A DNA stretch of 64,000 bases from Odiellus spinosus (lineage: Eukaryota; Arthropoda; Arachnida; Opiliones; Phalangiidae): positions 868,001-932,000 of the forward strand of contig OY987230.1 of the NCBI GenBank assembly GCA_963920705.1. The letters run 5' to 3'. The translations under genes were made by a program, and so were the position numbers. How positions within the stretch are numbered: position 1 is the stretch's first letter; every line of letters starts with the position of its first letter. Of this stretch, positions 1 to 57,070 are shown piece after piece. The notes under the pieces are model-generated. The model saw only the letters and a program-made list of their open reading frames with translations, searched no databases and had not been told where the DNA came from.

Positions 1-317
1 GATTTCTTGAATTGGCCATATTTTTCTTGTTTTTCAACGGATTTTTGAAAACTCTTATTATTTAGACTGTCCATTAATTGCTCTTTCGAATGACTTTGGT
101 TTTGTCTAAATTGCCAAAACGTGTAAATATAAAATTGGTTAAAATTAAGCAAAAACGCTTAAAAATCCAAGATTATTGGATTCAAATGGACACAAAACTT
201 TTGAATTTTAAGCGATTTAGACAAAATTAAGACCACTCGAAAGAGCAAATATTGGTCTATCTAAAAAACAATAGTTTTGGAAAATCCGTTGAAAAACAAG
301 AAAAATATGGCCAATTC

Positions 318-390
318 AAGAAATCATACAATATCAAAATAGTCAAATTTCAGATTTTCAAAATTCGCTTTTTGATATTAGATGTTTTTT
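318..390 (+). repeat. Reference satellite linker module (~73 bp, L+ orientation)
   Basis: The linker joins two cores and is itself an imperfect dyad: AATATCAAAA near one end mirrors TTTTTGATATT near the other. Its two ends are distinguishable (AAGAAATCAT on one side, GATGTTTTTT on the other), so its orientation can be scored separately from the core. The next linker, 701-773, is the same sequence reversed (L-). Both ends abut the GAATTG/CAATTC border of a core. Confidence 0.85.
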
Positions 391-700
391 GAATTGTCCA
401 TATTTTCCATGTTTTTCAACGGATTTTCCAAAACTCTTGATTTTCAGATAGACCAATATTTGCTCTTTCGAGTGGTCTTAATTTTGTCTAAATCGCTTAA
501 AAATCAAAAGTTTTGTGTCCATTTGAATCCAATAATCTTGGATTTTTAAGCGTTTTTGCTTAATTTTAACCAATTTTATATTTGTCACAATTTTGCAATT
601 TAGACAAAAACAAAGTCATTCGAAAGAGCAATTAATGGACAGTCTTAATAATAAGAGTTTTCAAAAATCCGTTGAAAAACATGGAAAATATGGACAATTC
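391..700 (-). repeat. Reference satellite core module (~310 bp, R orientation)
   Basis: This is one worked example of the core. It begins at GAATTGTCC and ends at GGACAATTC, so its ends are inverted copies of each other. The outer ~110 bp on each side form an imperfect inverted repeat. Each arm runs CCATATTTT...GTTTTTCAACGGATTTT, then a diverged inner part containing GCTCTTTCGA, and ends at TTTTGTCTAAAT. The central ~90 bp is not symmetrical apart from a short dyad, AATCC...GGATT, around the centre. The neighbouring core at 9-317 is the same sequence in the opposite orientation. Overall it has the layout of a foldback or MITE-like element. Confidence 0.85.
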
Positions 701-6059: not shown

Positions 6060-8340
6060 AAAACATCTAATATCAAAAAGCGAATTTTGAAAATCTGAAA
6101 TTTGACTATTTTGATATTCTATGATTTCTTGAATTGTCCACATTTTTCTTGTTTTTCAACGGATTTTTGAAAACTCTTATTATTTAGACTGTCCATTAAT
6201 TGCTATTTCGAATGACTTTGGTTTTGTCTAAATTGCCAAAACGTGACAAATATAAAATTGGTTAAAATTAAGCAAAAACGCTTAAAAATACAAGATTATT
6301 GGATTCAAATGGACACAAAACTTTTGATTTTTAAGCGATTTAGACAAAATTAAGACCACTCGAAAGACCAAATTTTGGTCTATCTAAAAAACAATAGTTT
6401 TGGAAAATCCGTTGAAAAACAAGAAAAATATGGCCAATTCAAGAAATCATACAATATCAAAATAGTCAAATTTCAGATTTTCAAAATTCGCTTTTTGATA
6501 TTAGATGTTTTTTGAATTGTCCATATTTTCCATGTTTTTCAACGGATTTTTGAAAACTCTTATTATTTAAACTGTCCATTAATTGCTCTTTCGAATGACT
6601 TTGGTTTTGTCTAAATTGCAAAATTGTGACAAATATAAAATTGGTTAAAATTAAGCAAAAACGCTTAAAAATCCAAGATTATTGGATTCAAATGGACACA
6701 AAACTTTTGATTTTTAAGCGATTTAGACAAAATTAAGACCACTCGAAAGACCAAATTTTGGTCTATCTAAAAAACAAGATTTTTGGAAAATCCGTTGAAA
6801 AACATGGAAAATATGGACAATTCAAAAAACATCTAATATCAAAAAGCGAATTTTGAAAATCTGAAATTTGACTATTTTGATATTCTATGATTTCTTGAAT
6901 TGTCCATATTTTCCATGTTTTTCAACAAATTTTTGAAAACTCTTATTATTTAAACTGTCCATTAATTGCTCTTTCGAATGACTTTGGTTTTGTCTAAATT
7001 GCAAAATTGTGACAAATATAAAATTGGTTAAAATTAAGCAAAAACGCTTAAAAATCCAAGATTATTGGATTCAAATGGACACAAAACTTTTGATTTTTAA
7101 GCGATTTAGACAAAATTAAGACCACTCGAAAGACCAAATTTTGGTCTATCTAAAAAACAAGAGTTTTGGAAAATCCGTTGAAAAACAAGAAAAATATGGA
7201 CAATTCAAAAAACATCTAATATCAAAAAGCGAATTTTGAAAATCTGAAATTTGACTATTTTGATATTCTATGATTTCTTGAATTGTCCACATTTTTCTTG
7301 TTTTTCAACGGATTTTTGAAAACTCTTATTATTTAGACTGTCCATTAATTGCTCTTTCGAATGACTTTGGTTTTGTCTAAATTGCCAAAACGTGACAAAT
7401 ATAAAATTGGTTAAAATTAAGCAAAAACGCTTAAAAATACAAGATTATTGGATTCAAATGGACACAAAACTTTTGATTTTTAAGCGATTTAGACAAAATT
7501 AAGACCACTCGAAAGACCAAATTTTGGTCTATCTAAAAAACAATAGTTTTGGAAAATCCGTTGAAAAACAAGAAAAATATGGCCAATTCAAGAAACCATA
7601 CAATATCAAAATAGTCAAATTTCAGATTTTCAAAATTCGCTTTTTGATATTAGATGTTTTTTGAATTGTCCATATTTTCCATGTTTTTCAACGGATTTTT
7701 GAAAACTCTTATTATTTAAACTGTCCATTAATTGCTCTTTCGAATGACTTTGGTTTTGTCTAAATTGCAAAATTGTGACAAATATAAAATTGGTTAAAAT
7801 TAAGCAAAAACGCTTAAAAATCCAAGATTATTGGATTCAAATGGACACAAAACTTTTGATTTTTAAGCGATTTAGACAAAATTAAGACCACTCGAAAGAC
7901 CAAATTTTGGTCTATCTAAAAAACAAGATTTTTGGAAAATCCGTTGAAAAACATGGAAAATATGGACAATTCAAAAAACATCTAATATCAAAAAGCGAAT
8001 TTTGAAAATCTGAAATTTGACTATTTTGATATTCTATGATTTCTTGAATTGTCCATATTTTCCATGTTTTTCAACAAATTTTTGAAAACTCTTATTATTT
8101 AAACTGTCCATTAATTGCTCTTTCGAATGACTTTGGTTTTGTCTAAATTGCAAAATTGTGACAAATATAAAATTGGTTAAAATTAAGCAAAAACGCTTAA
8201 AAATCCAAGATTATTGGATTCAAATGGACACAAAACTTTTGATTTTTAAGCGATTTAGACAAAATTAAGACCACTCGAAAGACCAAATTTTGGTCTATCT
8301 AAAAAACAAGAGTTTTGGAAAATCCGTTGAAAAACATGGA
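6060..8340. repeat. 1,149-bp (3-monomer) tandem duplication inside the satellite
   Basis: Private variants recur 1,149 bp apart: the AATACAAGATT change at 6,288 and 7,437, and CAACAAAT (instead of CAACGGAT) at 6,923 and 8,072. The GTCCACATTTTT variant near 6,136 also recurs near 7,285. The period is three monomers. All seven cores between about 6,130 and 8,750 are F, while linkers inside the run are in both orientations. Confidence 0.85.
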
Positions 8341-9189
8341 AAATATGGACAATTCAAAAAACATCTAATATCAAAAAGCGAATTTTGAAAATCAGAAATT
8401 TGACTATTTTGATATTCTATGATTTCTTGAATTGGCCATATTTTTCTTGTTTTTCAACGGATTTTTGAAAACTCTTATTATTTAGACTGTCCATTAATTG
8501 CTCTTTCGAATGACTTTGGTTTTGTCTAAATTGCCAAAACGTGACAAATATAAAATTGGTTAAAATTAAGCAAAAACGCTTAAAAATCCAAGATTATTGG
8601 ATTCAAATGGACACAAAACTTTTGAATTTTAAGCGATTTAGACAAAATTAAGACCACTCGAAAGACCAAATTTTGGTCTATCTAAAAAACAATAGTTTTG
8701 GAAAATCCGTTGAAAAACAAGAAAAATATGGCCAATTCTAGAAATCATACAATATCAAAATAGTCGAATTTCAGATTTTAAAAATTCGCTTTTTGATATT
8801 AGATGTTTTTTGAATTGTCCATATTTTCCATGTTTTTCAACGGATTTTCCAAAACTCTTGATTTTCAGATAGACCAATATTTGCTCTTTCGAGTGGTCTT
8901 AATTTTGTCTAAATCGCTTAAAAATCAAAAGTTTTGTGTTCATTTGAATCCAATAATCTTGGATTTTTAAGCGTTTTTGCTTTATTTTAACCAATTTTAT
9001 ATTTGTCACAATTTTGCAATTTAGACAAAACCAAAGTCATTCGAAAGAGCAATTAATGGACAGTTTAAATAATAAGAGTTTTCAAAAATCCGTTGAAAAA
9101 CATGGAAAATATGGACAATTCAAAAAACATCTAATATCAAAAAGCGAATTTTGAAAATCTGAAATTTGACTATTTTGATATTCTATGAT

Positions 9190-27100: not shown

Positions 27101-27750
27101 TGGACAATTCAAAAAACATCTAATATCAAAAAGCGAATTTTGAAAATCTGAAATTTGACTTTTTTGATATTCTATGATTTCTTGAATTGGCCATATTTTT
27201 CTTGTTTTTCAGCGGATTTTCCAAAACTATTGTTTTTTAGATAGACCAAAATTTGGTCTTTCGAGTGGTCTTAATTTTGTCTAAATCGCTTAAAATTCAA
27301 AAGTTTTGTGTCCATTTGAATCCAATAATCTTGGATTTTTAAGCGTTTTTGCTTAATTTTAACCAATTTTATATTTGTCACAATTTTGCAATTTAGACAA
27401 AACCAAAGTCATTCGAAAGAGCAATTAATGGACAGTCTAAATAATAAGAGTTTTCAAAAATCCGTTGAAAAACAAGAAAAATATGGCCAATTCAAGAAAT
27501 CATAGAATATCAAAATAGTCAAATTTCAGATTTTCAAAATTCGCTTTTTGATATTAGATGTTCTTTGAATTGTCCATATTTTCCATGTTTTTCAACGGAT
27601 TTTTGAAAACTCTTATTATTTAAACTGTCCATTAATTGCTCTTTCGAATGACTTTGGTTTTGTCTAAATTGCAAAATTGTGACAAATATAAAATTGGTTA
27701 AAATTAAGCAAAAACGCTTAAAAATCCAAGATTATTGGATTCAAATGGAC

Positions 27751-27761
27751 ACAAAATCATA
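27751..27761. other. Internal deletion junction in a satellite core (copy 1)
   Basis: The core runs normally to GGACACAAAA and then jumps directly to TCATAGAATATC of the following linker. About 150-160 bp, the whole right arm of the core, is missing. Short A-rich microhomology is present on both sides of the join. The identical junction occurs at 33,370, in the duplicated block. Confidence 0.85.
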
Positions 27762-28690
27762 GAATATCAAAATAGTCAAATTTCAGATTTTCAAAATTCG
27801 CTTTTTGATATTAGATGTTTTTTGAATTGGCCATATTTTTCTTGTTTTTCAACGGATTTTTGAAAACTCTTATTATTAAGACTGTCCATTAATTGCTCTT
27901 TCGAATGACTTTGTTTTTGTCTAAATTGCAAAATTGTGACAAATATAAAATTGGTTAAAATTAAGCAAAAACGCTTAAAAATCCAAGATTATTGGATTCA
28001 AATGGACACAAAACTTTTGATTTTTAAGCGATTTAGACAAAATTAAGACCACTCGAAAGAGCAAATATTGGTCTATCTGAAAATCAAGAGTTTTGGAAAA
28101 TCCGTTGAAAAACATGGAAAATATGGACAATTCAAAAAACATCTAATATCAAAAAGCGAATTTTGAAAATCTGAAATTTGACTATTTTGATATTCTATGA
28201 TTTCTTGAATTGGCCATATTTTTCTTGTTTTTCAACGGATTTTCCAAAACTATTGTTTTTTAGATAGACCAAAATTTGGTCTTTCGAGTGGTCTTAATTT
28301 TGTCTAAATCGCTTAAAATTCAAAAGTTTTGTGTCCATTTGAATCCAATAATCTTGGATTTTTAAGCGTTTTTGCTTAATTTTAACCAATTTTATATTTG
28401 TCACAATTTTGCAATTTAGACAAAACCAAAGTCATTCGAAAGAGCAATTAATGGACAGTCTAAATAATAAGAGTTTTCAAAAATCCGTTGAAAAACAAGA
28501 AAAATGTGGACAATTCAAGAAATCATAGAATATCAAAATAGTCAAATTTCAGATTTTCAAAATTCGCTTTTTGATATTAGATGTTTTTTGAATTGGCCAT
28601 ATTTTTCTTGTTTTTCAACGGATTTTTGAAAACTCTTATTATTAAGACTGTCCATTAATTGCTCTTTCGAATGACTTTGTTTTTGTCTAA

Positions 28691-31600: not shown

Positions 31601-34310
31601 AATAGTCAAATTTCAGATTTTCAAAATTCGCTTTTTGATATTAGATGTTTTTTGAATTGTCCATATTTTCCATGTTTTTCAACGGATTTTTGAAAACTCT
31701 TATTATTTAAACTGTCCATTAATTGCTCTTTCGAATGACTTTGGTTTTGTCTAAATTGCAAAATTGTGACAAATATAAAATTGGTTAAAATTAAGCAAAA
31801 ACGCTTAAAAATCCAAGATTATTGGATTCAAATGGACACAAAACTTTTGATTTTTAAGCGATTTAGACAAAATTAAGACCACTCGAAAGACCAAATTTTG
31901 GTCTATCAAAAAAACAAGAGTTTTGGAAAATCCGTTGAAAAACATGGAAAATATGGACAATTCAAAAAACATCTAATATCAAAAAGCGAATTTTGAAAAT
32001 CTGAAATTTGACTATTTTGATATTCTATGATTTCTTGAATTGGCCATATTTTTCTTGTTTTTCAACGGATTTTCCAAAACTATTGTTTTTTAGATAGACC
32101 AAAATTTGGTCTTTCGAGTGGTCTTAATTTTGTCTAAATCGCTTAAAATTCAAAAGTTTTGTGTCCATTTGAATCCAATAATCTTGGATTTTTAAGCGTT
32201 TTTGCTTAATTTTAACCAATTTTATATTTGTCAAGTTTTGGCAATTTAGACAAAACCAAAGTCATTCGAAAGAGCAATTAATGGACAGTCTAAATAATAA
32301 GAGTTTTCAAAAATCCGTTGAAAAACAAGAAAAATGTGGACAATTCAAGAAATCATAGAATATCAAAATAGTCAAATTTCAGATTTTCAAAATTCGCTTT
32401 TTGATATTAGATGTTTTTTGAATTGGCCATATTTTTCTTGTTTTTCAACGGATTTTTGAAAACTCTTATTATTAAGACTGTCCATTAATTGCTCTTTCGA
32501 ATGACTTTGTTTTTGTCTAAATTGCAAAATTGTGACAAATATAAAATTGGTTAAAATTAAGCAAAAACGCTTAAAAATCCAAGATTATTGGATTCAAATG
32601 GACACAAAACTTTTGATTTTTAAGCGATTTAGACAAAATTAAGACCACTCGAAAGAGCAAATATTGGTCTATCTGAAAATCAAGAGTTTTGGAAAATCCG
32701 TTGAAAAACATGGAAAATATGGACAATTCAAAAAACATCTAATATCAAAAAGCGAATTTTGAAAATCTGAAATTTGACTTTTTTGATATTCTATGATTTC
32801 TTGAATTGGCCATATTTTTCTTGTTTTTCAACGGATTTTCCAAAACTATTGTTTTTTAGATAGACCAAAATTTGGTCTTTCGAGTGGTCTTAATTTTGTC
32901 TAAATCGCTTAAAATTCAAAAGTTTTGTGTCCATTTGAATCCAATAATCTTGGATTTTTAAGCGTTTTTGCTTAATTTTAACCAATTTTATATTTGTCAC
33001 AATTTTGCAATTTAGACAAAACCAAAGTCATTCGAAAGAGCAATTAATGGACAGTCTAAATAATAAGAGTTTTCAAAAATCCGTTGAAAAACAAGAAAAA
33101 TATGGCCAATTCAAGAAATCATAGAATATCAAAATAGTCAAATTTCAGATTTTCAAAATTCGCTTTTTGATATTAGATGTTCTTTGAATTGTCCATATTT
33201 TCCATGTTTTTCAACGGATTTTTGAAAACTCTTATTATTTAAACTGTCCATTAATTGCTCTTTCGAATGACTTTGGTTTTGTCTAAATTGCAAAATTGTG
33301 ACAAATATAAAATTGGTTAAAATTAAGCAAAAACGCTTAAAAATCCAAGATTATTGGATTCAAATGGACACAAAATCATAGAATATCAAAATAGTCAAAT
33401 TTCAGATTTTCAAAATTCGCTTTTTGATATTAGATGTTTTTTGAATTGGCCATATTTTTCTTGTTTTTCAACGGATTTTTGAAAACTCTTATTATTAAGA
33501 CTGTCCATTAATTGCTCTTTCGAATGACTTTGTTTTTGTCTAAATTGCAAAATTGTGACAAATATAAAATTGGTTAAAATTAAGCAAAAACGCTTAAAAA
33601 TCCAAGATTATTGGATTCAAATGGACACAAAACTTTTGATTTTTAAGCGATTTAGACAAAATTAAGACCACTCGAAAGAGCAAATATTGGTCTATCTGAA
33701 AATCAAGAGTTTTGGAAAATCCGTTGAAAAACATGGAAAATATGGACAATTCAAAAAACATCTAATATCAAAAAGCGAATTTTGAAAATCTGAAATTTGA
33801 CTATTTTGATATTCTATGATTTCTTGAATTGGCCATATTTTTCTTGTTTTTCAACGGATTTTCCAAAACTATTGTTTTTTAGATAGACCAAAATTTGGTC
33901 TTTCGAGTGGTCTTAATTTTGTCTAAATCGCTTAAAATTCAAAAGTTTTGTGTCCATTTGAATCCAATAATCTTGGATTTTTAAGCGTTTTTGCTTAATT
34001 TTAACCAATTTTATATTTGTCACAATTTTGCAATTTAGACAAAACCAAAGTCATTCGAAAGAGCAATTAATGGACAGTCTAAATAATAAGAGTTTTCAAA
34101 AATCCGTTGAAAAACAAGAAAAATGTGGACAATTCAAGAAATCATAGAATATCAAAATAGTCAAATTTCAGATTTTCAAAATTCGCTTTTTGATATTAGA
34201 TGTTTTTTGAATTGGCCATATTTTTCTTGTTTTTCAACGGATTTTTGAAAACTCTTATTATTAAGACTGTACATTAATTGCTCTTTCGAATGACTTTGTT
34301 TTTGTCTAAA
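28691..34310. repeat. Copy 2 of the ~10.2-kb duplication, contracted to ~5.6 kb
   Basis: It matches 18,480-28,690 by shared private variants but lacks about 3,827 bp (five 765-bp dimers) where copy 1 has its 1,531-bp higher-order repeat. It also lacks one further 765-bp dimer where copy 1 has GACTTTTTTGATATT twice (near 26,392 and 27,158). All missing lengths are whole dimers, as expected of unequal exchange. Copy 2 ends near 34,310, where CCAAAACGTG would be expected but CAAAATTGTG is found. Confidence 0.82.
33370..33380. other. Internal deletion junction in a satellite core (copy 2)
   Basis: It is identical to the junction at 27,751 and lies 5,619 bp downstream, at the position expected from the ~10.2-kb duplication after its contractions. 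The deletion therefore happened once, before the block was duplicated. Confidence 0.85.
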
Positions 34311-40300: not shown

Positions 40301-41468
40301 TTTTCAAAATTCGCTTTTTGATATTAGATGTTTTTTGAATTGTCCATATTTTCCATGTTTTTCAACGGATTTTCGAAAACTCTTATTATTTAGACTGTCC
40401 ATTAATTGCTCTTTCGAATGACTTTGGTTTTGTCTAAATTGCAAAATTGTGACAAATATAAAATTGGTTAAAATTAAGCAAAAACGCTTAAAAATCCAAG
40501 ATTATTGGATTCAAATGGACACAAAACTTTTGAATTTTAAGCGATTTAGACAAAATTAAGACCACTCGAAAGACCAAATTTTGGTCTATCTAAAAAACAA
40601 TAGTTTTGGAAAATCCGTTGAAAAACAAGAAAAATATGGCCAATTCAAGAAATCATACAATATCAAAATAGTCAAATTTCAGATTTTAAAAATTCGCTTT
40701 TTGATATTAGATGCTTTTTGAATTGTCCATATTTTCCATGTTTTTCAACGGATTTTCCAAAACTCTTGTTTTTTAGATAGACCAATATTTGCTCTTTCGA
40801 GTGGTCTTAATTTTGTCTAAATCACTTAAAATTCAAAAGTTTTGTGTCCATTTGAATCCAATAATCTTGGATTTTTAAGCGTTTTTGCTTAATTTTAACC
40901 AATTTTATATTTGTCACAATTTTGCAATTTAGACAAAACCAAAGTCATTCGAAAGAGCAATTAATGGAAAGTCTAAATAATAAGAGTTTTCAAAAATCCG
41001 TTGAAAAACAAGAAAAATGTGGACAATTCAAGAAATCATAGAATATCAAAATAGTCAAATTTCAGATTTTCAAAATTCGCTTTTTGATATTAGATGTTTT
41101 TTGAATTGGCCATATTTTTCTTGTTTTTCAACGGATTTTTGAAAACTCTTATTATTAAGACTGTCCATTAATTGCTCTTTCGAATGACTTTGTTTTTGTC
41201 TAAATTGCAAAATTGTGACAAATATAAAATTGGTTAAAATTAAGCAAAAACGCTTAAAAATCCAAGATTATTGGATTCAAATGGACACAAAACTTTTGAT
41301 TTTTAAGCGATTTAGACAAAATTAAGACCACTCGAAAGAGCAAATATTGGTCTATCTGAAAATCAAGAGTTTTGGAAAATCCGTTGAAAAACATGGAAAA
41401 TATGGACAATTCAAAAAACATCTAATATCAAAAAGCGAATTTTGAAAATCTGAAATTTGACTATTTTG

Positions 41469-41734
41469 ATAATTAAAGGTTTAACCAATGAGTTCTGATA
41501 CTTCATGGAGTATTTAAAAATAATTTATTTTAAATTATTTACAATTTTAAAAATAATGGTAGCTTTCGGACCGTGGTCCTTCCTCAGCCGCTAACAATTT
41601 ATAAATTGTTAGCGGCTGAGGAAGGACCACGGTCCGAAAGCTACCATTATTTTTAAAATTGTAAATAATTTAAAATAAATTATTTTTAAATACTCCATGA
41701 AGTATCAGAACTCATTGGTTAAACCTTTAATTAT
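41469..41734. repeat. Perfect 266-bp palindrome (133-bp arms, no spacer)
   Basis: The centre lies between 41,601 and 41,602 within CAATTTATAAATTG. The two arms were compared base by base and no mismatch was found. Pairing breaks at 41,468/41,735. The lack of a spacer and of divergence implies recent origin, since long perfect palindromes are usually unstable. Confidence 0.92.
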
Positions 41735-41775
41735 TAAGAAAGTGCCATGGATCAAAAAGATTTTAATATTTATGA
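41471..41775. mobile_element. 305-bp palindromic insertion with 14-bp target-site duplication, possibly Penelope-like
   Basis: This is the only non-satellite sequence seen inside the array. The 14-bp TTGACTATTTTGAT stands on both sides (41,457-41,470 and 41,776-41,789) and occurs once at the matching empty sites in sister repeats (38,777-38,790 and 48,287-48,300). That shows a true insertion with a target duplication. Bases 41,469-41,734 form a perfect palindrome; a non-palindromic tail of about 40 bp follows (41,735-41,775). It has no open frame and no poly-A tail. A long target duplication points to target-primed reverse transcription or staggered-break repair rather than a cut-and-paste transposon. 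A CTGAGGA/GAAA stem-loop in each arm suggests a Penelope-like retroelement fragment; that assignment is tentative. Confidence 0.8.
41616..41639 (+). other. Hammerhead-ribozyme-like stem-loop, with mirror copy at 41,564-41,587 on the minus strand
   Basis: The sequence reads CTGAGGA, one A, a short hairpin GGACC-AC-GGTCC, then GAAA. The known hammerhead catalytic core has CUGANGA, stem II and GAAA, and Penelope-like retroelements are known to carry hammerheads. Differences are an extra A before stem II and no visible stem III with a UH cleavage site. It may be a degenerate or incomplete motif. Confidence 0.35.
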
Positions 41776-44710
41776 TTGACTATTTTGATATTCTATGATT
41801 TCTTGAATTGGCCATATTTTTCTTGTTTTTCAACGGATTTACCAAAACTATTGTTTTTTAGATAGACGAAAATTTGGTCTTTCGAGTGGTCTTAATTTTG
41901 TCTAAATCGCTTAAAATTCAAAAGTTTTGTGTCCATTTGAATCCAATAATCTTGGATTTTTAAGCGTTTTTGCTTAATTTTAACCAATTTTATATTTGTC
42001 ACAATTTTGCAATTTAGACAAAACCAAAGTCATTCGAAAGAGCAATTAATGGACAGTCTAAATAATAAGAGTTTTCAAAAATCCGTTGAAAAACAAGAAA
42101 AATATGGCCAATTCAAGAAATCATAGAATATCAAAATAGTCAAATTTCAGATTTTCAAAATTCGCTTTTTGACATTAGATGTTTTTTGAATTGTCCATAT
42201 TTTCCATGTTTTTCAACGGATTTTTGAAAACTCTTATTATTTAAACTGTCCATTAATTGCTCTTTCGAATGACTTTGGTTTTGTCTAAATTGCAAAATTG
42301 TGACAAATATAAAATTGGTTATAATTAAGCAAAAACGCTTAAAAATCCAAGATTATTGGATTCAAATGGACACAAAACTTTTGATTTTTAAGCGATTTAG
42401 ACAAAATTAAGACCACTCAAAAGAGCAAATATTGCTCTATCTAAAAAACAAGAGTTTTGGAAAATCCGTTGAAAAACATGGAAAATATGGACAATTCAAA
42501 AAACATCTAATATCAAAAAGCGAATTTTGAAAATCTGAAATTTGACTATTTTGATATTCTATGATTTCTTGAATTGGCCATATTTTTCTTGTTTTTCAAC
42601 GGATTTTTGAAAACTCTTATTATTTAGACTGTCCATTAATTGCTCTTTCGAATGACTTTGGTTTTGTCTAAATTGCCAAAACGTGACAAATATAAAATTG
42701 GTTAAAATTAAGCAAAAACGCTTAAAAATCCAAGATTATTGGATTCAAATGGACACAAAACTTTTGAATTTTAAGCGATTTAGACAAAATTAAGACCACT
42801 CGAAAGACCAAATTTTGGTCTATCTAAAAAACAATAGTTTTGGAAAATCCGTTGAAAAACAAGAAAAATATGGCCAATTCAAGAAATCATACAATATCAA
42901 AATAGTCAAATTTCAGATTTTCAAAATTAGCTTTTTGATATTAGATGTTTTTTGAATTGTCCATATTTTCCATGTTTTTCAACGGATTTTCCAAAACTCT
43001 TGATTTTCAGATAGACCAATATTTGCTCTTTCGAGTGGTCTTAATTTTGTCTAAATCGCTTAAAAATCAAAAGTTTTGTGTCCATTTGAATCCAATAATC
43101 TTGGATTTTTAAGCGTTTTTGCTTAATTTTAACCAATTTTATATTTGTCACGTTTTGGCAATTTAGACAAAACCAAAGTCATTCGAAAGAGCAATTAATG
43201 GACAGTCTAAATAATAAGAGTTTTCAAAAATCCGTTGAAAAACAAGAAAAATATGGCCAATTCAAGAAATCATAGAATATCAAAATAGTCAAATTTCAGA
43301 TTTTCAAAATTCGCTTTTTGATATTAGATGTTTTTTGAATTGGCCATATTTTTCTTGTTTTTCAACGGATTTTTGAAAACTCTTATTATTAAGACTGTCC
43401 ATTAATTGCTCTTTCGAATGACTTTGTTTTTGTCTAAATTGCAAAATTGTGACAAATATAAAATTGGTTAAAATTAAGCAAAAACGCTTAAAAATCCAAG
43501 ATTATTGGATTCAAATGGACACAAAACTTTTGATTTTTAAGCGATTTAGACAAAATTAAGACCACTCGAAAGAGCAAATATTGGTCTATCTAAAAAACAA
43601 GAGTTTTGGAAAATCCGTTGAAAAACATGGAAAATATGGACAATTCAAAAAACATCTAATATCAAAAAGCGAATTTTGAAAATCTGAAATTTGACTATTT
43701 TGATATTGTATGATTTCTTGAATTGGCCATATTTTTCTTGTTTTTCAACGGATTTTCCAAAACTATTGTTTTTTAGATAGACCAAAATTTGGTCTTTCGA
43801 GTGGTCTTAATTTTGTCTAAATCGCTTAAAATTCAAAAGTTTTGTGTCCATTTGAATCCAATAATCTTGGATTTTTAAGCGTTTTTGCTTAATTTTAACC
43901 AATTTTATATTTGTCACAATTTTGCAATTTAGACAAAACCAAAGTCATTCGAAAGAGCAATTAATGGACAGTTTAAATAATAAGAGTTTTCAAAAATCCG
44001 TTGAAAAACATGGAAAATATGGACAATTCAAAAAAAATCTAATATCAAAAAGCGAATTTTGAAAATCTGAAATTTGACTATTTTGATATTCTAATATTTC
44101 TTGAATTGGCCATATTTTTCTTGTTTGTCAACGGATTTTTGAAAACTCTTATTATTTAGACTGTCCATTAATTGCTCTTTCGAATGACTTTGGTTTTGTC
44201 TAAATTGCCAAAACGTGACAAATATAAAATTGGTTAAAATTAAGCAAAAACGCTTAAAAATCCAAGATTATTGGATTCAAATGGACACAAAACTTTTGAT
44301 TTTTAAGGGATTTAGACAAAATTAAGACCACTCGAAAGAGCAAATATTGATCTATCTAAAAAACAAGAGTTTTGGAAAATCAGTTGAAAAACATGGAAAA
44401 TATGGACAATTCAAAAAACATCTAATATCAAAAAGCGAATTTTGAAAATCTGAAATTTGACTATTTTGATATTCTATGATTTCTTGAATTGGCCATATTT
44501 TTCTTGTTTTTCAACGGATTTTTGAAAACTCTTATTATTTAGACTGTCCATTAATTGCTCTTTCGAATGACTTTCGTTTTGTCTAAATTGCCAAAACGTG
44601 ACAAATATAAAATTGGTTAAAATTAAGCAAAAACGCTTAAAAATCCAAGATTATTGGATTCAAATGGACACAAAACTTTTGATTTTTAAGCGATTTAGAC
44701 AAAATTAAGA

Positions 44711-47700
44711 CCACTCGAAAGACCAAATTTTGCTCTATCTAAAAAACAATAGTTTTGGAAAATCCGTTGAAAAACAAGAAAAATATGGCCAATTCAAGAA
44801 ATCATACAATATCAAAATAGTCAAATTTCAGATTTTAAAAATTCGCTTTTTGATATTAGATGTTTTTTGAATTGTCCATATTTTCCATGTTTTTCAACGG
44901 ATTTTCCAAAACTCTTGTTTTTTAGATAGAGCAATATTTGCTCTTTCGAGTGGTCTTAATTTTGTCTAAATCGCTTAAAAATCAAAAGTTTTGTGTCCAT
45001 TTGAATCCAATAATCTTGGATTTTTAAGCGTTTTTGCTTAATTTTAACCAATTTTATATTTGTCACGTTTTGGCAATTTAGACAAAACCAAAGTCATTCG
45101 AAAGAGCAATTAATGGACAGTCTAAATAATAAGAGTTTTCAAAAATCCGTTGAAAAACAAGAAGAATATGGCCAATTCAAGAAATCATAGAATATCAAAA
45201 TAGTCAAATTTCAGATTTTCAAAATTCGCTTTTTGATATTAGATGTTTTTTGAATTGTCCATATTTTCCATGTTTTTCAACGGATTTTCCAAAACTCTTG
45301 TTTTTTAGATAGACCAAAATTTGGTCTTTCGAGTGGTCTTAATTTTGTCTAAATCGCTTAAAATTCAAAAGTTTTGTGTCCATTTGAATCCAATAATCTT
45401 GGATTTTTAAGCGTTTTTGTTTAATTTTAACCAATTTTATATTTGTCACAATTTTGCAATTTAGACAAAACCAAAGTCATTCGAAAGAGCAATTGATGGA
45501 CAGTCTAAATAATAAGTGTTTTCAAAAATCCGTTGAAAAACAAGAAAAATATGGCCAATTCAAGAAATCATAGAATATCAAAATAGTCAAATTTCAGATT
45601 TTCAAAATTCGCTTTTTGATATTAGATGTTTTTTGAATTGTCCATATTTTCCATGTTTTTCAACTGATTTTCCAAAACTCTTGTTTTTTAGATAGATCAA
45701 TATTTGCTCTTTCGAGTGGTCTTAATTTTGTCTAAATCGCTTAAAAATCAAAAGTTTTGTGTCCATTTGAATCCAATAATCTTGGATTTTTAAGCGTTTT
45801 TGCTTAATTTTAACCAATTTTATATTTGTCACAATTTTGCAATTTAGACAAAACCAAAGTCATTCGAAAGAGCAATTAATGGACAGTTTAAATAATAAGA
45901 GTTTTCAAAAATCCGTTGAAAAGCATGGAAAATATGGCCAATTCAAGAAATCATAGAATATCAAAATAGTCAAATTTCAGATTTTCAAAATTCGCTTTTT
46001 GATATTAGATGTTTTTTGAATTGTCCATATTTTCCATGTTTTTCAACGGATTTTCCAAAACTCTTGTTTTTTAGATAGACCAAAATTTGGTCTTTCGAGT
46101 GGTCTTAATTTTGTCTAAATCGCTTAAAAATCAAAAGTTTTGTGTCCATTTGAATCCAATAATCTTGGATTTTTAAGCGTTTTTGCTTAATTTTAACCAA
46201 TTTTATATTTGTCACAATTTTGCAATTTAGACAAAACCAAAGTCATTCGAAAGAGCAATTAATGGACAGTTTAAATAATAAGAGTTTTCAAAAATCCGTT
46301 GAAAAACATGGAAAATATGGCCAATTCAAGAAATCATAGAATATCAAAATAGTCAAATTTCAGATTTTCAAAATTCGCTTTTTGATATTAGATGTTTTTT
46401 GAATTGTCCATATTTTCCATGTTTTTCAACGGATTTTCCAAAACTCTTGTTTTTTAGATAGACCAAAATTTGGTCTTTCGAGTGGTCTTAATTTTGTCTA
46501 AATCGCTTAAAATTCAAAAGTTTTGTGTCCATTTGAATCCAATAATCTTGGATTTTTAAGCGTTTTTGTTTAATTTTAACCAATTTTATATTTGTCACAA
46601 TTTTGCAATTTAGACAAAACCAAAGTCATTCGAAAGAGCAATTGATGGACAGTCTAAATAATAAGTGTTTTCAAAAATCCGTTGAAAAACAAGAAAAATA
46701 TGGCCAATTCAAGAAATCATAGAATATCAAAATAGTCAAATTTCAGATTTTCAAAATTCGCTTTTTGATATTAGATGTTTTTTGAATTGTCCATATTTTC
46801 CATGTTTTTCAAATGATTTTCCAAAACTCTTGTTTTTTAGATAGATCAATATTTGCTCTTTCGAGTGGTCTTAATTTTGTCTAAATCGCTTAAAAATCAA
46901 AAGTTTTGTGTCCATTTGAATCCAATAATCTTGGATTTTTAAGCGTTTTTGCTTAATTTTAACCAATTTTATATTTGTCACAATTTTGCAATTTAGACAA
47001 AACCAAAGTCATTCGAAAGAGCAATTAATGGACAGTTTAAATAATAAGAGTTTTCAAAAATCCGTTGAAAAACATGGAAAATATGGCCAATTCAAGAAAT
47101 CATAGAATATCAAAATAGTCAAATTTCAGATTTTCAAAATTCGCTTTTTGATATTAGATGTTTTTTGAATTGTCCATATTTTCCATGTTTTTCAACGGAT
47201 TTTCCAAAACTCTTGTTTTTTAGATAGACCAAAATTTGGTCTTTCGAGTGGTCTTAATTTTGTCTAAATCGCTTAAAAATCAAAAGTTTTGTGTCCATTT
47301 GAATCCAATAATCTTGCATTTTTAAGCGTTTTTGCTTAATTTTAACCAATTTTATATTTGTCACAATTTTGCAATTTAGACAAAACCAAAGTCATTCGAA
47401 AGAGCAATTAATGGACAGTTTAAATAATAAGAGTTTTCAAAAATCCGTTGAAAAACATGGAAAATATGGCCAATTCAAGAAATCATAGAATATCAAAATA
47501 GTCAAATTTCAGATTTTCAAAATTCGCTTTTTGATATTAGATGTTTTTTGAATTGTCCATATTTTCCATGTTTTTCAACGGATTTTCCAAAACTCTTGTT
47601 TTTTAGATAGACCAAAATTTGGTCTTTCGAGTGGTCTTAATTTTGTCTAAATCGCTTAAAATTCAAAAGTTTTGTGTCCATTTGAATCCAATAATCTTGG

Positions 47701-50700
47701 ATTTTTAAGCGTTTTTGCTTAATTTTAACCAATTTTATATTTGTCACAATTTTGCAATTTAGACAAAACCAAAGTCATTCGAAAGAGCAATTAATGGAAA
47801 GTCTAAATAATAAGAGTTTTCAAAAATCCGTTGAAAAACAAGAAAAATGTGGACAATTCAAGAAATCATAGAATATCAAAATAGTCAAATTTCAGATTTT
47901 CAAAATTCGCTTTTTGATATTAGATGTTTTTTGAATTGGCCATATTTTTCTTGTTTTTCAACGGATTTTTGAAAACTCTTATTATTAAGACTGTCCATTA
48001 ATTGCTCTTTCGAATGACTTTGTTTTTGTCTAAATTGCAAAATTGTGACAAATATAAAATTGTTTAAAATTAAGCAAAAACGCTTAAAAATCCAAGATTA
48101 TTGGATTCAAATGGACACAAAACTTTTGATTTTTAAGCGATTTAGACAAAATTAAGACCACTCGAAAGAGCAAATATTGGTCTATCTGAAAATCAAGAGT
48201 TTTGGAAAATCCGTTGAAAAACATGGAAAATATGGACAATTCAAAAAACATCTAATATCAAAAAGCGAATTTTGAAAATCTGAAATTTGACTATTTTGAT
48301 ATTCTATGATTTCTTGAATTGGCCATATTTTTCTTGTTTTTCAACGGATTTTCCAAAACTATTGTTTTTTAGATAGACGAAAATTTGGTCTTTCGAGTGG
48401 TCTTAATTTTGTCTAAATCGCTTAAAATTCAAAAGTTTTGTGTCCATTTGAATCCAATAATCTTGGATTTTTAAGCGTTTTTGCTTAATTTTAACCAATT
48501 TTATATTTGTCACATTTTTGCAATTTAGACAAAACCAAAGTCATTCGAAAGAGCAATTAATGGACAGTCTAAATAATAAGAGTTTTCAAAAATCCGTTGA
48601 AAAACAAGAAAAATATGGCCAATTCAAGAAATCATAGAATATCAAAATAGTCAAATTTCAGATTTTCAAAATTCGCTTTTTGACATTAGATGTTTTTTGA
48701 ATTGTCCATATTTTCCATGTTTTTCAACGGATTTTTGAAAACTCTTATTATTTAAACTGTCCATTAATTGCTCTTTCGAATGACTTTGGTTTTGTCTAAA
48801 TTGCAAAATTGTGACAAATATAAAATTGGTTATAATTAAGCAAAAACGCTTAAAAATCCAAGATTATTGGATTCAAATGGACACAAAACTTTTGATTTTT
48901 AAGCGATTTAGACAAAATTAAGACCACTCAAAAGAGCAAATATTGCTCTATCTAAAAAACAAGAGTTTTGGAAAATCCGTTGAAAAACATGGAAAATATG
49001 GACAATTCAAAAAACATCTAATATCAAAAAGCGAATTTTGAAAATCTGAAATTTGACTATTTTGATATTCTATGATTTCTTGAATTGGCCATATTTTTCT
49101 TGTTTTTCAACGGATTTTTGAAAACTCTTATTATTTAGACTGTCCATTAATTGCTCTTTCGAATGACTTTGGTTTTGTCTAAATTGCCAAAACGTGACAA
49201 ATATAAAATTGGTTAAAATTAAGCAAAAACGCTTAAAAATCCAAGATTATTGGATTCAAATGGACACAAAACTTTTGAATTTTAAGCGATTTAGACAAAA
49301 TTAAGACCACTCGAAAGACCAAATTTTGGTCTATCTAAAAAACAATAGTTTTGGAAAATCCGTTGAAAAACAAGAAAAATATGGCCAATTCAATAAATCA
49401 TACAATATCAAAATAGTCAAATTTCAGATTTTCAAAATTCGCTTTTTGATATTAGATGTTTTTTGAATTGTCCATATTTTCCATGTTTTTCAACGGATTT
49501 TCCAAAACTCTTGATTTTCAGATAGACCAATATTTGCTCTTTCGAGTGGTCTTAATTTTGTCTAAATCGCTTAAAAATCAAAAGTTTTGTGTCCATTTGA
49601 ATCCAATAATCTTGGATTTTTAAGCGTTTTTGCTTAATTTTAACCAATTTTATATTTGTCACGTTTTGGCAATTTAGACAAAACCAAAGTCATTCGAAAG
49701 AGCAATTAATGGACAGTCTAAATAATAAGAGTTTTCAAAAATCCGTTGAAAAACAAGAAAAATATGGCCAATTCAAGAAATCATAGAATATCAAAATAGT
49801 CAAATTTCAGATTTTCAAAATTCGCTTTTTGATATTAGATGTTTTTTGAATTGTCCATATTTTCCATGTTTTTCAACGGATTTTTGAAAACTCTTATTAT
49901 TTAGACTGTCCATTAATTGCTCTTTCGAATGACTTTGGTTTTGTCTAAATTGCAAAATTGTGACAAATATAAAATTGGTTAAAATTAAGCAAAAACGCTT
50001 AAAAATCCAAGATTATTGGATTCAAATGGACACAAAACTTTTGAATTTTAAGCGATTTAGACAAAATTAAGACCACTCGAAAGACCAAATTTTGGTCTAT
50101 CTAAAAAACAATAGTTTTGGAAAATCCGTTGAAAAACAAGAAAAATATGGCCAATTCAAGAAATCATACAATATCAAAATAGTCAAATTTCAGATTTTCA
50201 AAATTCGCTTTTTGATATTAGAGGTTTTTTGAATTGTCCATATTTTCCATGTTTTTCAACGGATTTTCCAAAACTCTTGTTATTTAGATAGACCAATATT
50301 TGCTCTTTTGAGTGGTCTTAATTTTGTCTAAATCGCTTAAAAATCAAAAGTTTTGTGTCCATTTGAATCCAATAATCTTGGATTTTTAAGCGTTTTTGCT
50401 TAATTTTAACCAATTTTATATTTGTCACAATTTTGCAATTTAGACAAAACCAAAGTCATTCGAAAGAGCAATTAATGGACAATCTAAATAAGAGTTTTCA
50501 AAAATCCGTTGAATAACAAGAAAAATGTGGACAATTCAAGAAATCATAGAATATCAAAATAGTCAAATTTCAGATTTTCAAAATTCGCTTTTTGATATTA
50601 GATGTTTTTTGAATTGGCCATATTTTTCTTGTTTTTCAACGGATTTTTGAAAACTCTTATTATTAAGACTGTCCATTAATTGCTCTTTCGAATGACTTTG

Positions 50701-51985: not shown

Positions 51986-54900
51986 CACTCGAAAGACCAA
52001 ATTTTGGTCTATCTAAAAAACAATAGTTTTGGAAAATCCGTTGAAAAACAAGAAAAATATGGCCAATTCAAGAAATCATACAATATCAAAATAGTCAAAT
52101 TTCAGATTTTCAAAATTCGCTTTTTGATATTAGATGTTTTTTGAATTGTCCATATTTTCCATGTTTTTCAACGGATTTTCCAAAACTCTTGATTTTCAGA
52201 TAGACCAATATTTGCTCTTTCGAGTGGTCTTAATTTTGTCTAAATCGCTTAAAAATCAAAAGTTTTGTGTCCATTTGAATCCAATAATCTTGGATTTTTA
52301 AGCGTTTTGCTTAATTTTAACCAATTTTATATTTGTCACAATTTTGCAATTTAGACAAAAACAAAGTCATTCGAAAGAGCAATTAATGGACAGTCTTAAT
52401 AATAAGAGTTTTCAAAAATCCGTTGAAAAACAAGAAAAATATGGCCAATTCACAAAACATCTAATATCAAAAAGGGAATTTTGAAAATCTGAAATTTGAC
52501 TATTTTGATATTCTATGATTTCTTGAATTGTCCACATTTTTCTTGTTTTTCAACGGATTTTTGAAAACTCTTATTATTTAGACTGTCCATTAATTGCTCT
52601 TTCGAATGACTTTGGTTTTGTCTAAATTGCAAAATTGTGACAAATATAAAATTGGTTAAAATTAAGCAAAAACGCTTAAAAATCCAAGATTATTGGATTC
52701 AAATGGACACAAAACTTTTGAATTTTAAGCGATTTAGACAAAATTAAGACCACTCGAAAGACCAAATTTTGGTCTATCTAAAAAACAATAGTTTTGGAAA
52801 ATCCGTTGAAAAACAAGAAAATTATGGCCAATTCTAGAAATCATACAATATCAAAATAGTCAAATTTCAGATTTTAAAAATTCGCTTTTTGATATTAGAT
52901 GTTTTTTGAATTGTCCATATTTTCCATGTTTTTCAACGGATTTTCCAAAACTCTTGATTTTCAGATAGACCAATATTTGCTCTTTCGAGTGGTCTTAATT
53001 TTGTCTAAATCGCTTAAAAATCAAAAGTTTTGTGTCCATTTGAATCCAATAATCTTGGATTTTTAAGCGTTTTTGCTTTATTTTAACCAATTTTATATTT
53101 GTCACAATTTTGCAATTTAGACAATACCAAAGTCATTCGAAAGAGCAATTAATGGACAGTTTAAATAATAAGAGTTTTCAAAAATCCGTTGAAAAACATG
53201 GAAAATGTGGACAATTCAAGAAATCATAGAATATCAAAATAGTCAAATTTCAGATTTTCAAAATTCGCTTTTTGATATTAGATGTTTTTTGAATTGGCCA
53301 TATTTTTCTTGTTTTTCAACGGATTTTTGAAAACTCTTATTATTAAGACTGTCCATTAATTGCTCTTTCGAATGACTTTGTTTTTGTCTAAATTGCAAAA
53401 TTGTGACAAATATAAAATTGGTTAAAATTAAGCAAAAACGCTTAAAAATCCAAGATTATTGGATTCAAATGGACACAAAACTTTTGATTTTTAAGCGATT
53501 TAGACAAAATTAAGACCACTCGAAAGAGCAAATATTGGTCTATCTGAAAATCAAGAGTTTTGGAAAATCCGTTGAAAAACATGGAAAATATGGACAATTA
53601 AAAAACATCTAATATCAAAAAGCGAGTTTTGAAAATCTGAAATTTGACTATTTTGATATTCTATGATTTCTTGAATTGGCCATATTTTTCTTGTTTTTCA
53701 ACGGATTTTTGAAAACTCTTATTATTTAGACTGTCCATTAATTGCTCTTTCGAATGACTTTGGTTTTGTCTAAATTGCCAAAACGTGACAAATATAAAAT
53801 TGGTTAAAATTAAGCAAAAACGCTTAAAAATCCAAGATTATTAGATTCAAATGGACACAAAACTTTTGATTTTTAAGCGATTTAGACAAATTTAAGACCA
53901 CTCGAAAGACCAAATTTTGGTCTATCTAAAAAACAATAGTTTTGGAAAATCCGTTGAAAAACAAGAAAAATATGGCCAATTCAAGAAATCATACAATATC
54001 AAAATAGTCAAATTTCAGATTTTCAAAATTCGCTTTTTGATATTAGATGTTTTTTGAATTGTCCATATTTTCCATGTTTTTCAACGGATTTTCCAAAACT
54101 CTTGTTTTTTAGATAGACCAATATTTGCTCTTTCGAGTGGTCTTAATTTTGTCTAAATCGCTTAAAAATCAAAAGTTTTGTGTCCATTTGAATCCAATAA
54201 TCTTGGATTTTTAAGCGTTTTTGCTTAATTTTAACCAATTTTATATTTGTCACGTTTTGGCAATTTAGACAAAACCAAAGTCATTCGAAAGAGCAATTAA
54301 TGGACAGTCTAAATAATAAGAGTTTTCAAAAATCCGTTGAAAAACAAGAAAAATATAGCCAATTCAAGAAATCATAGAATATCAAAATAGTCAAATTTCA
54401 GATTTTCAAAATTCGCTTTTTGATATTAGATGTTTTTTGAATTGTCCATATTTTCCATGTTTTTCAACGGATTTTCCAAAACTCTTGTTTTTTAGATAGA
54501 CCAAAATTTGGTCTTTCGAGTGGTCTTAATTTTGTCTAAATCGCTTAAAATTCAAAAGTTTTGTGTCCATTTGAATCCAATAATCTTGGATTTTTAAGCG
54601 TTTTTGCTTAATTTTAACCAATTTTATATTTGTCACAATTTTGCAATTTAGACAAAACCAAAGTCATTCGAAAGAGCAATTAATGGACAGTCTAAATAAT
54701 AAGAGTTTTCAAAAATCCGTTGAAAAACAAGAAAAATATGGCCAATTCAAGAAATCATAGAATATCAAAATAGTCAAATTTCAGATTTTCAAAATTCGCT
54801 TTTTGATATTAGATGTCTTTTGAATTGTCCATATTTTCCATGTTTTTCAACGGATTTTTGAAAACTCTTATTATTTAAACTGTCCATTAATTGCTCTTTC

Positions 54901-57070
54901 GAATGACTTTGGTTTTGTCTAAATTGCAAAATTGTGACAAATATAAAATTGGTTAAAATTAAGCAAAAACGCTTAAAAATCCAAGATTATTGGATTCAAA
55001 TGGACACAAAACTTTTGAATTTTAAGCGATTTAGACAAAATTAAGACCACTCGAAAGACCAAATTTTGGTCTATCTAAAAAACAATAGTTTTGGAAAATC
55101 TGTTGAAAAACAAGAAAAATATGGCCAATTCAAGAAATCATACAATATCAAAATAGTCAAATTTCAGATTTTCAAAATTCGCTTTTTTATATTAGATGTT
55201 TTTTGAATTGTCCATATTTTCCATGTTTTTCAACGGATTTTCCAAAACTCTTGTTTTTTAGATAGACCAATATTTGCTCTTTCGAGTGGTCTTAATTTTG
55301 TCTAAATCGCTTAAAATTCAAAAGATTTGTGTCCATTTGAATCCAATAATCTTGGATTTTTATGCGTTTTTGCTTAATTTTAACCAATTTTATATTTGTC
55401 ACAATTTTGCAATTTAGACAAAACCAAAGTCATTCGAAAGAGCAATTAATGGACAGTCTAAATAATAACAGTTTTCAAAAATGCGTTGAAAAACAAGAAA
55501 AATGTAGACAATTCAAGAAATCATAGAATATCAAAATAGTCAAATTTCAGATTTTCAAAATTCGCTTTTTGATATTAGATGTTTTTTGAATTGGCCATAT
55601 TTTTCTTGTTTTTCAACGGATTTTTGAAAACTCTTATTATTAAGACTGTCCATTAATTGCTCTTTCGAATGACTTTGTTTTTGTCTAAATTGCAAAATTG
55701 TGACAAATATAAAATTGGTTAAAATTAAGCAAAAACGCTTAAAAATCCAAGATTATTGGATTCAAATGGACACAAAACTTTTGATTTTTAAGCGATTTAG
55801 ACAAAATTAAGACCACTCGAAAGAGCAAATATTGGTCTATCTAAAAAACAAGAGTTTTGGAAAATCCGTTGAAAAACATGGAAAATATGGACAATTCAAA
55901 AAACATCTAATATCAAAAAGCGAATTTTGAAAATCTGAAATTTGACTATTTTGATATTGTATGATTTCTTGAATTGGCCATATTTTTCTTGTTTTGCAAC
56001 GGATTTTCCAAAACTATTGTTTTTTAGATAGACCAAAATTTGGTCTTTCGAGTGGTCTTAATTTTGTCTAAATCGCTTAAAATTCAAAAGTTTTGTGTCC
56101 ATTTGAATCCAATAATCTTGGATTTTTAAGCGTTTTTGCTTAATTTTAACCAATTTTATATTTGTCACAATTTTGCAATTTAGACAAAACCAAAGTCATT
56201 CGAAAGAGCAATTAATGGACAGTCTAAATAATAAGAGTTTTCAAAAATCCGTTGAAAAACAAGAAAAATGTGGACAATTCAAAAAACATCTAATATCAAA
56301 AAGCGAATTTTGAAAATCTGAAATTTGACTATTTTGATATTCTATGATTTCTTGAATTGGCCAAATTTTTCTTGTTTTTCAACGGATTTTTGAAAACTCT
56401 TATTATTTAGACTGTCCAATAATTGCTCTTTCGAATGACTTTGGTTTTGTCTAAATTGCCAAAACGTGACAAATATAAAATTGGTTAAAATTAAGCAAAA
56501 ACGCTTAAAAATCCAAGATTATTGGATTCAAATGGACACAAAACTTTTGATTTTTAAGCGATTTAGACAAAATTAAGACCACTCGAAAGAGCACATATTG
56601 GTCTATCTGAAAATCAAGAGTTTTGGAAAATCCGTTGAAAAACATGGAAAATATGGACAATTCAAAAAACATCTAATATCAAAAAGCGAATTTTGAAAAT
56701 CTGAAATTTGACTATTTTGATATTCTATGATTTCTTGAATTGGCCATATTTTTCTTGTTTTTCAACGGATTTTTGAAAACTCTTATTATTTAGACTGTCC
56801 ATTAATTGCTCTTTCGTATGACTTTGGTTTTGTCTAAATTGCAAAATTGTGACAAATATAAAATTGGTTAAAATTAAGCAAAAACGCTTAAAAATCCAAG
56901 ATTATTGGATTCAAATGGACACAAAACTTTTGAATTTTAAGCGATTTAGACAAAATTAAGACCACTCGAAAGACCAAATTTTGGTCTATCTAAAAAACAA
57001 GAGTTTTGGAAAATCCGTTGAAAAACAAGAAAAATATGGCCAATTCAAGAAATCATACAATATCAAAATA

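Follow-up and report, generated by a model that had tools for sequence, protein, structure and literature searches.

The window, a stretch of 64,000 nucleotides from the opilionid Odiellus spinosus (contig OY987230.1, positions 868,001 to 932,000), is occupied at 1..57,069 by a 383-bp satellite array in which two modules, a core and a linker, lie in mixed orientation. Bases 1-57,200 were cut at shared anchors into 147 cores, 146 linkers and two core fusions, with modal lengths from anchor to anchor of 258 bp (131 of 147 cores) and 137 bp (136 of 146 linkers). An example core spans 35..291 on the minus strand between CAACGG and CCGTTG, and the window segmentation and orientation call place an L+ linker of 137 bp at 286..422 on the plus strand. 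This segmentation confirmed what the initial annotation had observed from the letters: two modules with inverted ends, each present in both orientations, with the register kept. Its opening calls, 16 for cores and 16 for linkers, are identical to ours, its F being our R (the example core is thus F there). The seven like-oriented cores with mixed linkers at 6,130-8,750 are as claimed, and so is the plus-strand head-to-tail stretch of eight like-oriented cores with exclusively L+ linkers at 44,870..47,860. The claimed pitch of 382-383 bp also holds, at 383 bp in 118 of 146 core steps and 382 bp in 22. Orientation is all-or-none, the mismatch counts against the two orientations being separated by at least 86 in the 131 modal-length cores (96 sites differ) and by at least 40 in the 136 modal-length linkers (53 sites differ).

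Below we name junctions by the core end (a or b) and the linker end (p or q) that meet. The border had been placed at GAATTG. The usual breakpoint zone between modules is instead the 18-bp TGTTTTTCAACGGATTTT (for example at 410..427), which the consensus and the diagnostic-site table place at all four module ends. Because segments between TGTTTTTCAACGGATTTT and GAATTG agree with the linker interior (116-122 of 136 copies at six diagnostic sites), we dropped GAATTG as the usual border; it persists as a second breakpoint at 63 of 297 b-q linker ends, a minority.

Several features interrupt the regular pattern. A core fusion at 27,591..27,860, with a 126-bp deletion and two anchors 257 bp apart, recurs 5,619 bp away at 33,210..33,479 within a duplicated block; we considered these two fusions as counterparts of the centre of the transposon described below and dropped the idea, as they align to it at only 81-82% with 31 gaps. 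A perfect palindrome of 266 bp (41,469-41,734) forms part of an insertion in the linker at 41,381..41,836. At 57,070..64,000 an insertion with a MITE-like element (~57,071-57,857) breaks another linker, and satellite reappears less than 0.35 kb into the next stretch, L013. The mosaic up to 57,069 is real, and the array that had been ended at 57,070 continues beyond an interruption. An Rfam scan of the window gave no match at gathering scores, and a Pfam search of six open frames of the flank gave nothing up to E=0.1.

Orientation statistics and junction alleles

The initial annotation held that the modules flip independently, and tests on neighbouring modules in the window reject strict independence: linker versus next linker gave p=1.5e-6, core versus next core p=1.8e-4, linker versus next core p=2.9e-4 and core versus next linker p=0.04, in tests that ignore block duplications. 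The triple F,L-,F (in our notation) has 0 occurrences there. Across the sampled satellite-bearing stretches, linkers alternate above chance, with a switch in 494 of 689 neighbour steps, whereas cores switch at a near-random rate (379 of 676). All four junction types are common in the sampled mosaic arrays (304, 399, 393 and 308), and the four core-orientation combinations between p-p and q-q cores are roughly equal (88, 70, 85 and 95; p=0.13). Copies of like orientation are no closer in sequence, with 7.10 differences within versus 7.13 between orientations for cores and 3.19 versus 3.21 for linkers.

Mixed orientation as such recurs on contig C6, which has satellite at its start and TTAGG repeats at its other end, and, in the sample from this 443-Mb genome, on eight further contigs. 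Uniform monomer orientation is absent from the window and the other sampled satellite stretches and present in the 2.2 kb read of an array on contig C5, which runs head-to-tail throughout. From all a-end junctions (exact matches and the sample's match rate) we estimate ~59,000 units, or 22.6 Mb; a figure of 76,081 units and 29 Mb was dropped, having scaled one head-to-tail junction by a mosaic-rich sample.

Junction type is tied to sequence. Allele A at core site 19 occurs in 7,491 of 8,819 exact a-p copies genome-wide and in 438 of 40,767 exact a-q copies, an odds ratio of 519 over 49,586 exact a-end junctions; among sampled ends it marks 94% of 304 a-p and 1% of 399 a-q junctions. With loci held out in groups, core sequence predicts the adjoining linker end with 95% accuracy at end a and 88% at end b; for end q, prediction of the partner from linker sequence reached only 66%. 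Cores recombinant between the two subfamilies, carrying an arm of each, sit in the matching mixed context in 40 of 44 and 15 of 18 cases. Association decays across the linker, where the r2 of site 43 falls from 0.44 with the near junction to 0.003 with the far junction; along the core, association with the junction at end a does not follow distance smoothly (r2 of 0.46 at site 86 and ~0.39 at sites 40 and 46). Since free flipping at the borders would erase any link between junctions and alleles, this association speaks against it: boundaries are mostly inherited rather than recurrent inversion sites, and a-p is a derived junction with a private allele. The earlier interpretation is supported in part, in its two modules of either orientation with kept register and inverted ends and in the minority GAATTG breakpoint; independent flipping, and nearly every boundary acting as a potential inversion site, are too strong or wrong.

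Dispersed elements carrying the satellite unit

The same unit resides in a transposon, of which we read two copies, one on C2 and one on C5; they measure 4,631 and 5,521 bp in no stated order and have the ends GGCTCCGTCAACTTGG. Both are bounded by long terminal inverted repeats that contain tandem repeats: satellite units, uniformly head-to-tail and mirrored between the arms, make up most of each arm, and the outer domain has repeats of its own. A 9-bp target site duplication, AGTGAAACG, flanks the C5 copy, within the 8-10 bp range on this one copy. Besides the two copies read, five further groups on C1-C5 match this layout in the spacing of their junctions only. By its arms, target duplication and dispersal, the element would classify as a non-coding, Mutator-like foldback transposon.

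A precedent is Tetris (TIR-220) of Drosophila virilis, described as a non-coding element of the foldback type, flanked by target duplications of 8-10 bp. Its inverted arms combine an outer domain with internal tandem units that also form satellite arrays of up to 66 copies, 0.08% of the assembled genome (PMC4079207). The Odiellus element resembles it in having one unit in both transposon arms and long arrays; it differs in scale, the exact junctions suggesting ~59,000 units here, and the parts of the Tetris account consulted mention no scrambling of module orientation.

Identity to the satellite consensus is 91.5-95.3% for transposon cores and 94.9-96.4% for transposon linkers. Matching stretches of the two copies are >99% alike, so these copies arose after the satellite and are not what it actually came from. 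The head-to-tail array on C5 lies further from the consensus (89-90%) than the transposon cores do and is therefore no simple intermediate.

It is possible, though we rate it as rather doubtful, that the satellite came first and that the transposon captured pre-existing units and only disperses them. The youth of the two copies fits such a capture, as does an unrooted tree of unsettled bootstrap that sets transposon and satellite cores on opposite sides of one branch. Against it, the units fill most of both arms in mirrored head-to-tail order, transposon cores vary more among themselves (92.6-97.3% identity) than sampled satellite cores do (mean ~7 differences in 258), and satellite haplotypes with transposon alleles at eight key sites stand in a head-to-tail context in all 10 cases; Tetris, as far as its description was consulted, is a precedent for the opposite direction (PMC4079207).

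Proposed origin of the orientation mosaic

We favour, with moderate confidence, a reading in which the satellite is related by descent to the foldback transposon and its orientation was shuffled, on some contigs, by recombination that preserved the junctions and followed rare founding inversions. The direction from transposon to satellite is one we infer. Transposon units would have been amplified into arrays, and a single inversion or a few at module borders, usually within the 18-bp stretch and sometimes at GAATTG, would have created new core-linker junctions. Homologous exchange between opposed neighbours, by crossover or gene conversion, could then turn the modules between them. Exchange inside whole modules can account for the mosaic, border flips being needed only as rare founding events, and block duplication may afterwards have copied orientation patterns. 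Register and junction types would survive such exchange, since a core flanked on both sides by the same linker end, the situation of ~72% of cores (494 of 689), meets equal homology both ways.

The sequences shared by both orientations, the junction alleles, the recombinant cores, the decay of association across the linker and the near-equal orientation combinations speak for this reading. When inversions between opposed homologous modules were simulated, the junction counts stayed the same and linker alternation did not appear; a head-to-tail start gave no opposed homologous pairs. For p-p cores, near-identical opposed neighbours (at separations 2 and 4, 16 of 72) lie nominally only slightly above a background of 0.129, and q-q cores are in no excess (2 of 68, background 0.044). 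These counts and the missing alternation weigh against the reading, as do the uneven association along the core, the 66% accuracy from linker sequence, the youth of the two transposon copies, the distance of the C5 array from the consensus and the search for in-place flips given below, which found none.

Foldback copying at replication, in which template switches in palindromic arms leave local inverted duplications, is an unlikely main source of the mosaic, a little less credible to us than capture of the units by the transposon. It would account for four palindromes that have a core at their centre and three or more matching modules per side, for inverted duplicate blocks at two sampled loci (L022 and L025), and for linker alternation above chance, which inverted duplication would give. 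Yet recombinant cores in mixed contexts and the decay of association across the linker both need exchange inside modules, and direct duplications are commoner among large blocks.

Still less probable is the mechanism first proposed, with shared borders turning almost all module boundaries into recurrent inversion sites at which modules flip singly and independently. The abundance of all four junctions in mosaic arrays, the sharing of the same sequences by both orientations and the second GAATTG breakpoint are what it would produce; the junction alleles, the prediction of neighbours from core sequence and the alternation of linkers are not. Nor did 92 flanked comparisons yield any in-place flip with private variants kept (five flipped cores had other sequences), and a search for inversions of 2, 3 or 5 modules found none that kept private variants.

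That the mosaic is an assembly artefact is highly improbable: repeats are hard to assemble and our analysis rests on assembled sequence rather than reads, but nine contigs, C6 among them, show the mosaic while the stretch on C5 assembles uniformly, the register is kept, and junction alleles obey a genome-wide rule.

Satellites are usually pictured as head-to-tail arrays in which inversions are rare and large, and their sequence homogeneity normally hides recombination inside arrays. Here one genome holds the transposon form, a uniform array and scrambled arrays of one unit, with alleles marking each junction, a coexistence that lets exchange in modules, founding inversions and duplications be read. 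We suggest only tentatively that recombination drove the satellite toward orientation disorder, since homology cannot tell core directions apart where most cores sit between mirror-image linker ends; orientation may be drifting freely, perhaps still actively and with polymorphism among individuals, with junctions heritable and the three states coexisting.

The case adds strongly to those tying foldback elements to abundant satellite DNA. At the level of titles and abstract openings, our literature search found no description of a two-module satellite with a module-scale orientation mosaic. In the parts consulted, the macro-dyad satellites of Tribolium madens, T. castaneum and T. freemani, with long dyad symmetry in the TmSat2 monomer, are described as changing orientation at conserved inversion sites, which gives inverted subarrays of multi-kb length, in most cases two to an array (PMC13081366). 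The Odiellus satellite is likewise abundant and orientation-changing, but it changes at the scale of single modules, as its switch counts indicate, and lacks such subarrays. A 385-bp satellite of Trichogramma brassicae, with ~80-bp inverted arms inside the monomer (cited in PMC13081366, of which part was consulted), is similar in unit length and in its inverted arms, a likeness drawn from description rather than sequence.

Orientation of core and linker modules

The genome spans 443,074,358 bases in 286 contigs (C1, C2 and so on), and the window was placed at C6:868,001-932,000. Window bases 1-57,200 were segmented wherever the anchor TTCAACGGATTTT or its reverse complement occurred with up to 2 mismatches. 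This yielded 147 cores, of which 131 measure 258 bp, 15 measure 257 bp and one 255 bp, and 146 linkers (136 of 137 bp, seven of 136 bp, two of 138 bp and an insertion-bearing one of 456 bp), with two core fusions besides the intact modules. Orientation was unambiguous, with a mismatch gap between orientations of at least 86 for the 131 modal-length cores (96 differing sites) and at least 40 for the 136 modal-length linkers (53 differing sites). The segmentation reproduced the first 16 core and 16 linker orientations of the initial annotation, with F and R swapped, as well as both orientation runs it had quoted and its 382-383 bp pitch, seen in 140 of 146 core-to-core steps.

Both consensus sequences are partly self-complementary: the core at 162 of 258 positions, mainly in the outer 80 bp, and the linker at 84 of 137, mainly in the outer 33 bp. 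An 18-bp stretch is common to all four module ends, which we named a and b on the core and p and q on the linker. In 116-122 of the 136 window copies, the segments running from this stretch to GAATTG match the interior of the linker, and the 18-bp stretch is therefore the usual module border. A head-to-tail array allows a-q and b-p junctions only; a-p and b-q are the remaining two types.

Beyond the window, we segmented 20 stretches of 10 kb, each adjoining the window or sited where a match to one mosaic unit had been listed, and another 12 of 4 kb. Nine of these 12 lay along C6, one at the start of C112 and two at listed matches; four of them lacked the satellite. Since stretches were chosen at matches to a mosaic unit, the sample is biased to mosaic arrays. 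Two stretches, L011 and L012, share 2 kb that was counted twice except in the simulation and the opposed-neighbour comparison, and that forms one trivial block in the duplication search. With 14 irregular segments omitted, all loci together contained 715 cores, 400 of them R and 315 F, and 729 linkers, 381 of them + and 348 -. The orientation mosaic appeared on C6 and eight further contigs (C20, C59, C71, C100, C104, C112, C130 and C154). The mixed-orientation array first described from the window is real.

Junction counts over all loci were 304 a-p, 399 a-q, 393 b-p and 308 b-q. Neighbouring linkers alternated in 494 of 689 pairs and neighbouring cores in 379 of 676; alternation exceeded one half in 27 of 29 loci for linkers (p=1.6e-6) and in 19 of 28 untied loci for cores (p=0.09). 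By partners of a and b, core contexts were q-q (250), p-p (244), q-p (143) and p-q (52). For the 338 linkers with a p-p core on one side and a q-q core on the other, the orientation combinations were balanced (88, 70, 85 and 95; p=0.13), and all four occurred in 20 of 29 loci. Core orientation is therefore close to random, while linkers mostly alternate. The proposal that the two modules flip independently holds only in part; in the window, orientation was associated between successive linkers (p=1.5e-6), successive cores (p=1.8e-4), linker and next core (p=2.9e-4), and core and next linker (p=0.04).

Inherited junctions and exchange within modules

Core-linker junctions are inherited. At core site 19, 94% of p-joined a-ends (n=304) carry A, versus 1% of q-joined ones (n=399; p=1.9e-168, with related copies non-independent). 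Exact 35-base junctions genome-wide gave 7,491 a-p with A and 1,328 with C, against 40,329 a-q with C and 438 with A (odds ratio 519, phi2 0.765); exact b-end counts were 40,827 b-p and 7,053 b-q. With loci held out in groups, core sequence predicted the partner of end a with 95% accuracy (baseline 57%) and that of end b with 88% (baseline 56%), and linker sequence predicted the partner of p at 84% and of q at 66% (baseline 56%). The initial annotation had treated nearly every boundary as a potential inversion site through a shared GAATTG/CAATTC border; such flipping is borne out only in part: site 19 and partner prediction speak against it, and GAATTG is retained as a rarer breakpoint.

Association with the a junction declines along the core, though not smoothly (r2 0.86 at site 19, about 0.39 at sites 40 and 46, 0.46 at site 86 and 0.17 at site 227). 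Linker site 43 has r2 of 0.44 to the near junction versus 0.003 to the far one, and cores joining the left arm of one subfamily to the right arm of the other lie in the matching mixed context in 40 of 44 and 15 of 18 cases. The near/far linker association and the mixed cores bear the marks of exchange within modules. Simulated exchange between opposed modules left junction types unchanged, and a purely head-to-tail array offered no opposed pairs. Seeding the simulation with 15 flipped linkers did not reproduce the observed linker alternation, which would need an added step, either an amplified alternating pair or local inverted duplication. A p-like end sequence on 63 of 297 b-q linker ends indicates that this junction class has more than one origin.

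In-place flips retaining a module's own variants were absent from 92 flanked comparisons, which comprised 71 unchanged modules, 11 of the same orientation with other sequence, five flipped cores with other sequence, one irregular case and four palindrome-centre self-comparisons. Modules were no closer within than between orientations (mean differences 7.10 vs 7.13 and 3.19 vs 3.21). Among near-identical opposed neighbours, p-p cores slightly exceeded background and q-q cores did not, in a descriptive comparison. Block duplications are the chief form of recent change, with direct copies spanning as many as 18 modules and inverted ones as many as 16. The duplicated blocks at window 37,299-38,837 and 46,810-48,347, about 9.5 kb apart, have orientation strings in common, so much of the pattern stems from copying and not from new changes. 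The rare a-p junction with C recurs five times at C6:1,347,282-1,356,471, spaced 2,296-2,298 bp, which suggests a local six-unit higher-order repeat.

Head-to-tail arrays and a related foldback transposon

At C5:1,804,283-1,916,652, all 68 a-q matches listed are minus and all seven b-p plus, and hence one order holds throughout the listed junctions. A 2.2 kb stretch there contained five R cores and six L- linkers, each core agreeing with the transposon at 13 of the 14 informative sites. Because identity is 89-90% with the satellite consensus and 90-92% with transposon cores, this array is a separate branch that looks older. A four-unit query from it matched end to end on C8, C18, C47, C65, C107, C168 and C261 (13 of 3,214 candidates scored), all missing from the contigs among the mosaic-unit matches listed. 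As a-p makes up 17.8% of exact a-end junctions genome-wide versus 43% in the sample, much of the satellite is probably head-to-tail. The satellite as a whole amounts to roughly 59,000 units, or 22.6 Mb.

The b-p junction matches listed also included short groups that stand alone on C1-C5 and share one layout. Two of these groups were read completely by tiles: C2:2,548,867-2,553,497 (4,631 bp) and C5:7,088,625-7,094,145 (5,521 bp). These foldback transposon copies are 99.4-99.7% alike over both long matching stretches. Their inverted ends begin GGCTCCGTCAACTTGGCCCCCCC, and each arm passes from an outer domain with its own repeats into head-to-tail satellite units, which oppose those of the other arm over a truncated centre. 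The 9-bp target duplication AGTGAAACG surrounds the C5 copy, and five further groups match the layout, judged by junction spacing only. Identity of transposon cores to the satellite consensus is 91.5-95.3%. In an unrooted tree of 53 rows that includes the commonest satellite haplotypes, and whose bootstrap had not settled, these cores make up one side of a 99/94 branch. All 10 satellite cores with the transposon's key-site haplotype had a head-to-tail context. Listed matches for a-p (either allele) and a-q with A begin on C6, so we read C1-C5 as holding no exact copies.

The array is best classed as a satellite related to a foldback transposon, set apart by its probable scrambling by recombination. 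Its closest known counterpart is Tetris of Drosophila virilis (PMC4079207); Tribolium madens satellites invert as multi-kb subarrays (PMC13081366) rather than at module scale. Listed matches in a limited paper collection showed no module-scale scrambling with inherited junctions.

Chromosomal setting and neighbouring elements

Along the 24.9 Mb of C6, sampled stretches contained the satellite at 0, 0.2, 0.4, 0.6 and 3.2 Mb, and 4-kb stretches at 3.6, 5 and 12 Mb lacked it; the final stretch is TTAGG telomere repeat. A pericentromeric block is a plausible reading. Inside one window linker lies a 266-bp perfect palindrome (41,469-41,734; 133-bp arms, 0 mismatches), either a recently inserted foldback or a snapback of the assembly. 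Another short perfect hairpin insertion, unlike this palindrome, lies within a core of the transposon arm, that of 381 bp (about 1,010-1,090 of fetched stretch L045; about 970-1,050 and 1,860-1,940 of L046); in the longer copy, the unit holding this insertion has been duplicated. Where the satellite is interrupted, window 57,071-57,857 holds a MITE-like element with imperfect inverted ends of about 130 bp (about 19 mismatches), and about 14 tandem copies of the 20-bp unit GGAATCACGCGAATCGATTC occupy 61,965-62,259. TTAGG, with 7,381 and 2,915 exact 25-base matches genome-wide, is also scattered in runs inside chromosome arms, on C1 (among the matches listed) and elsewhere.
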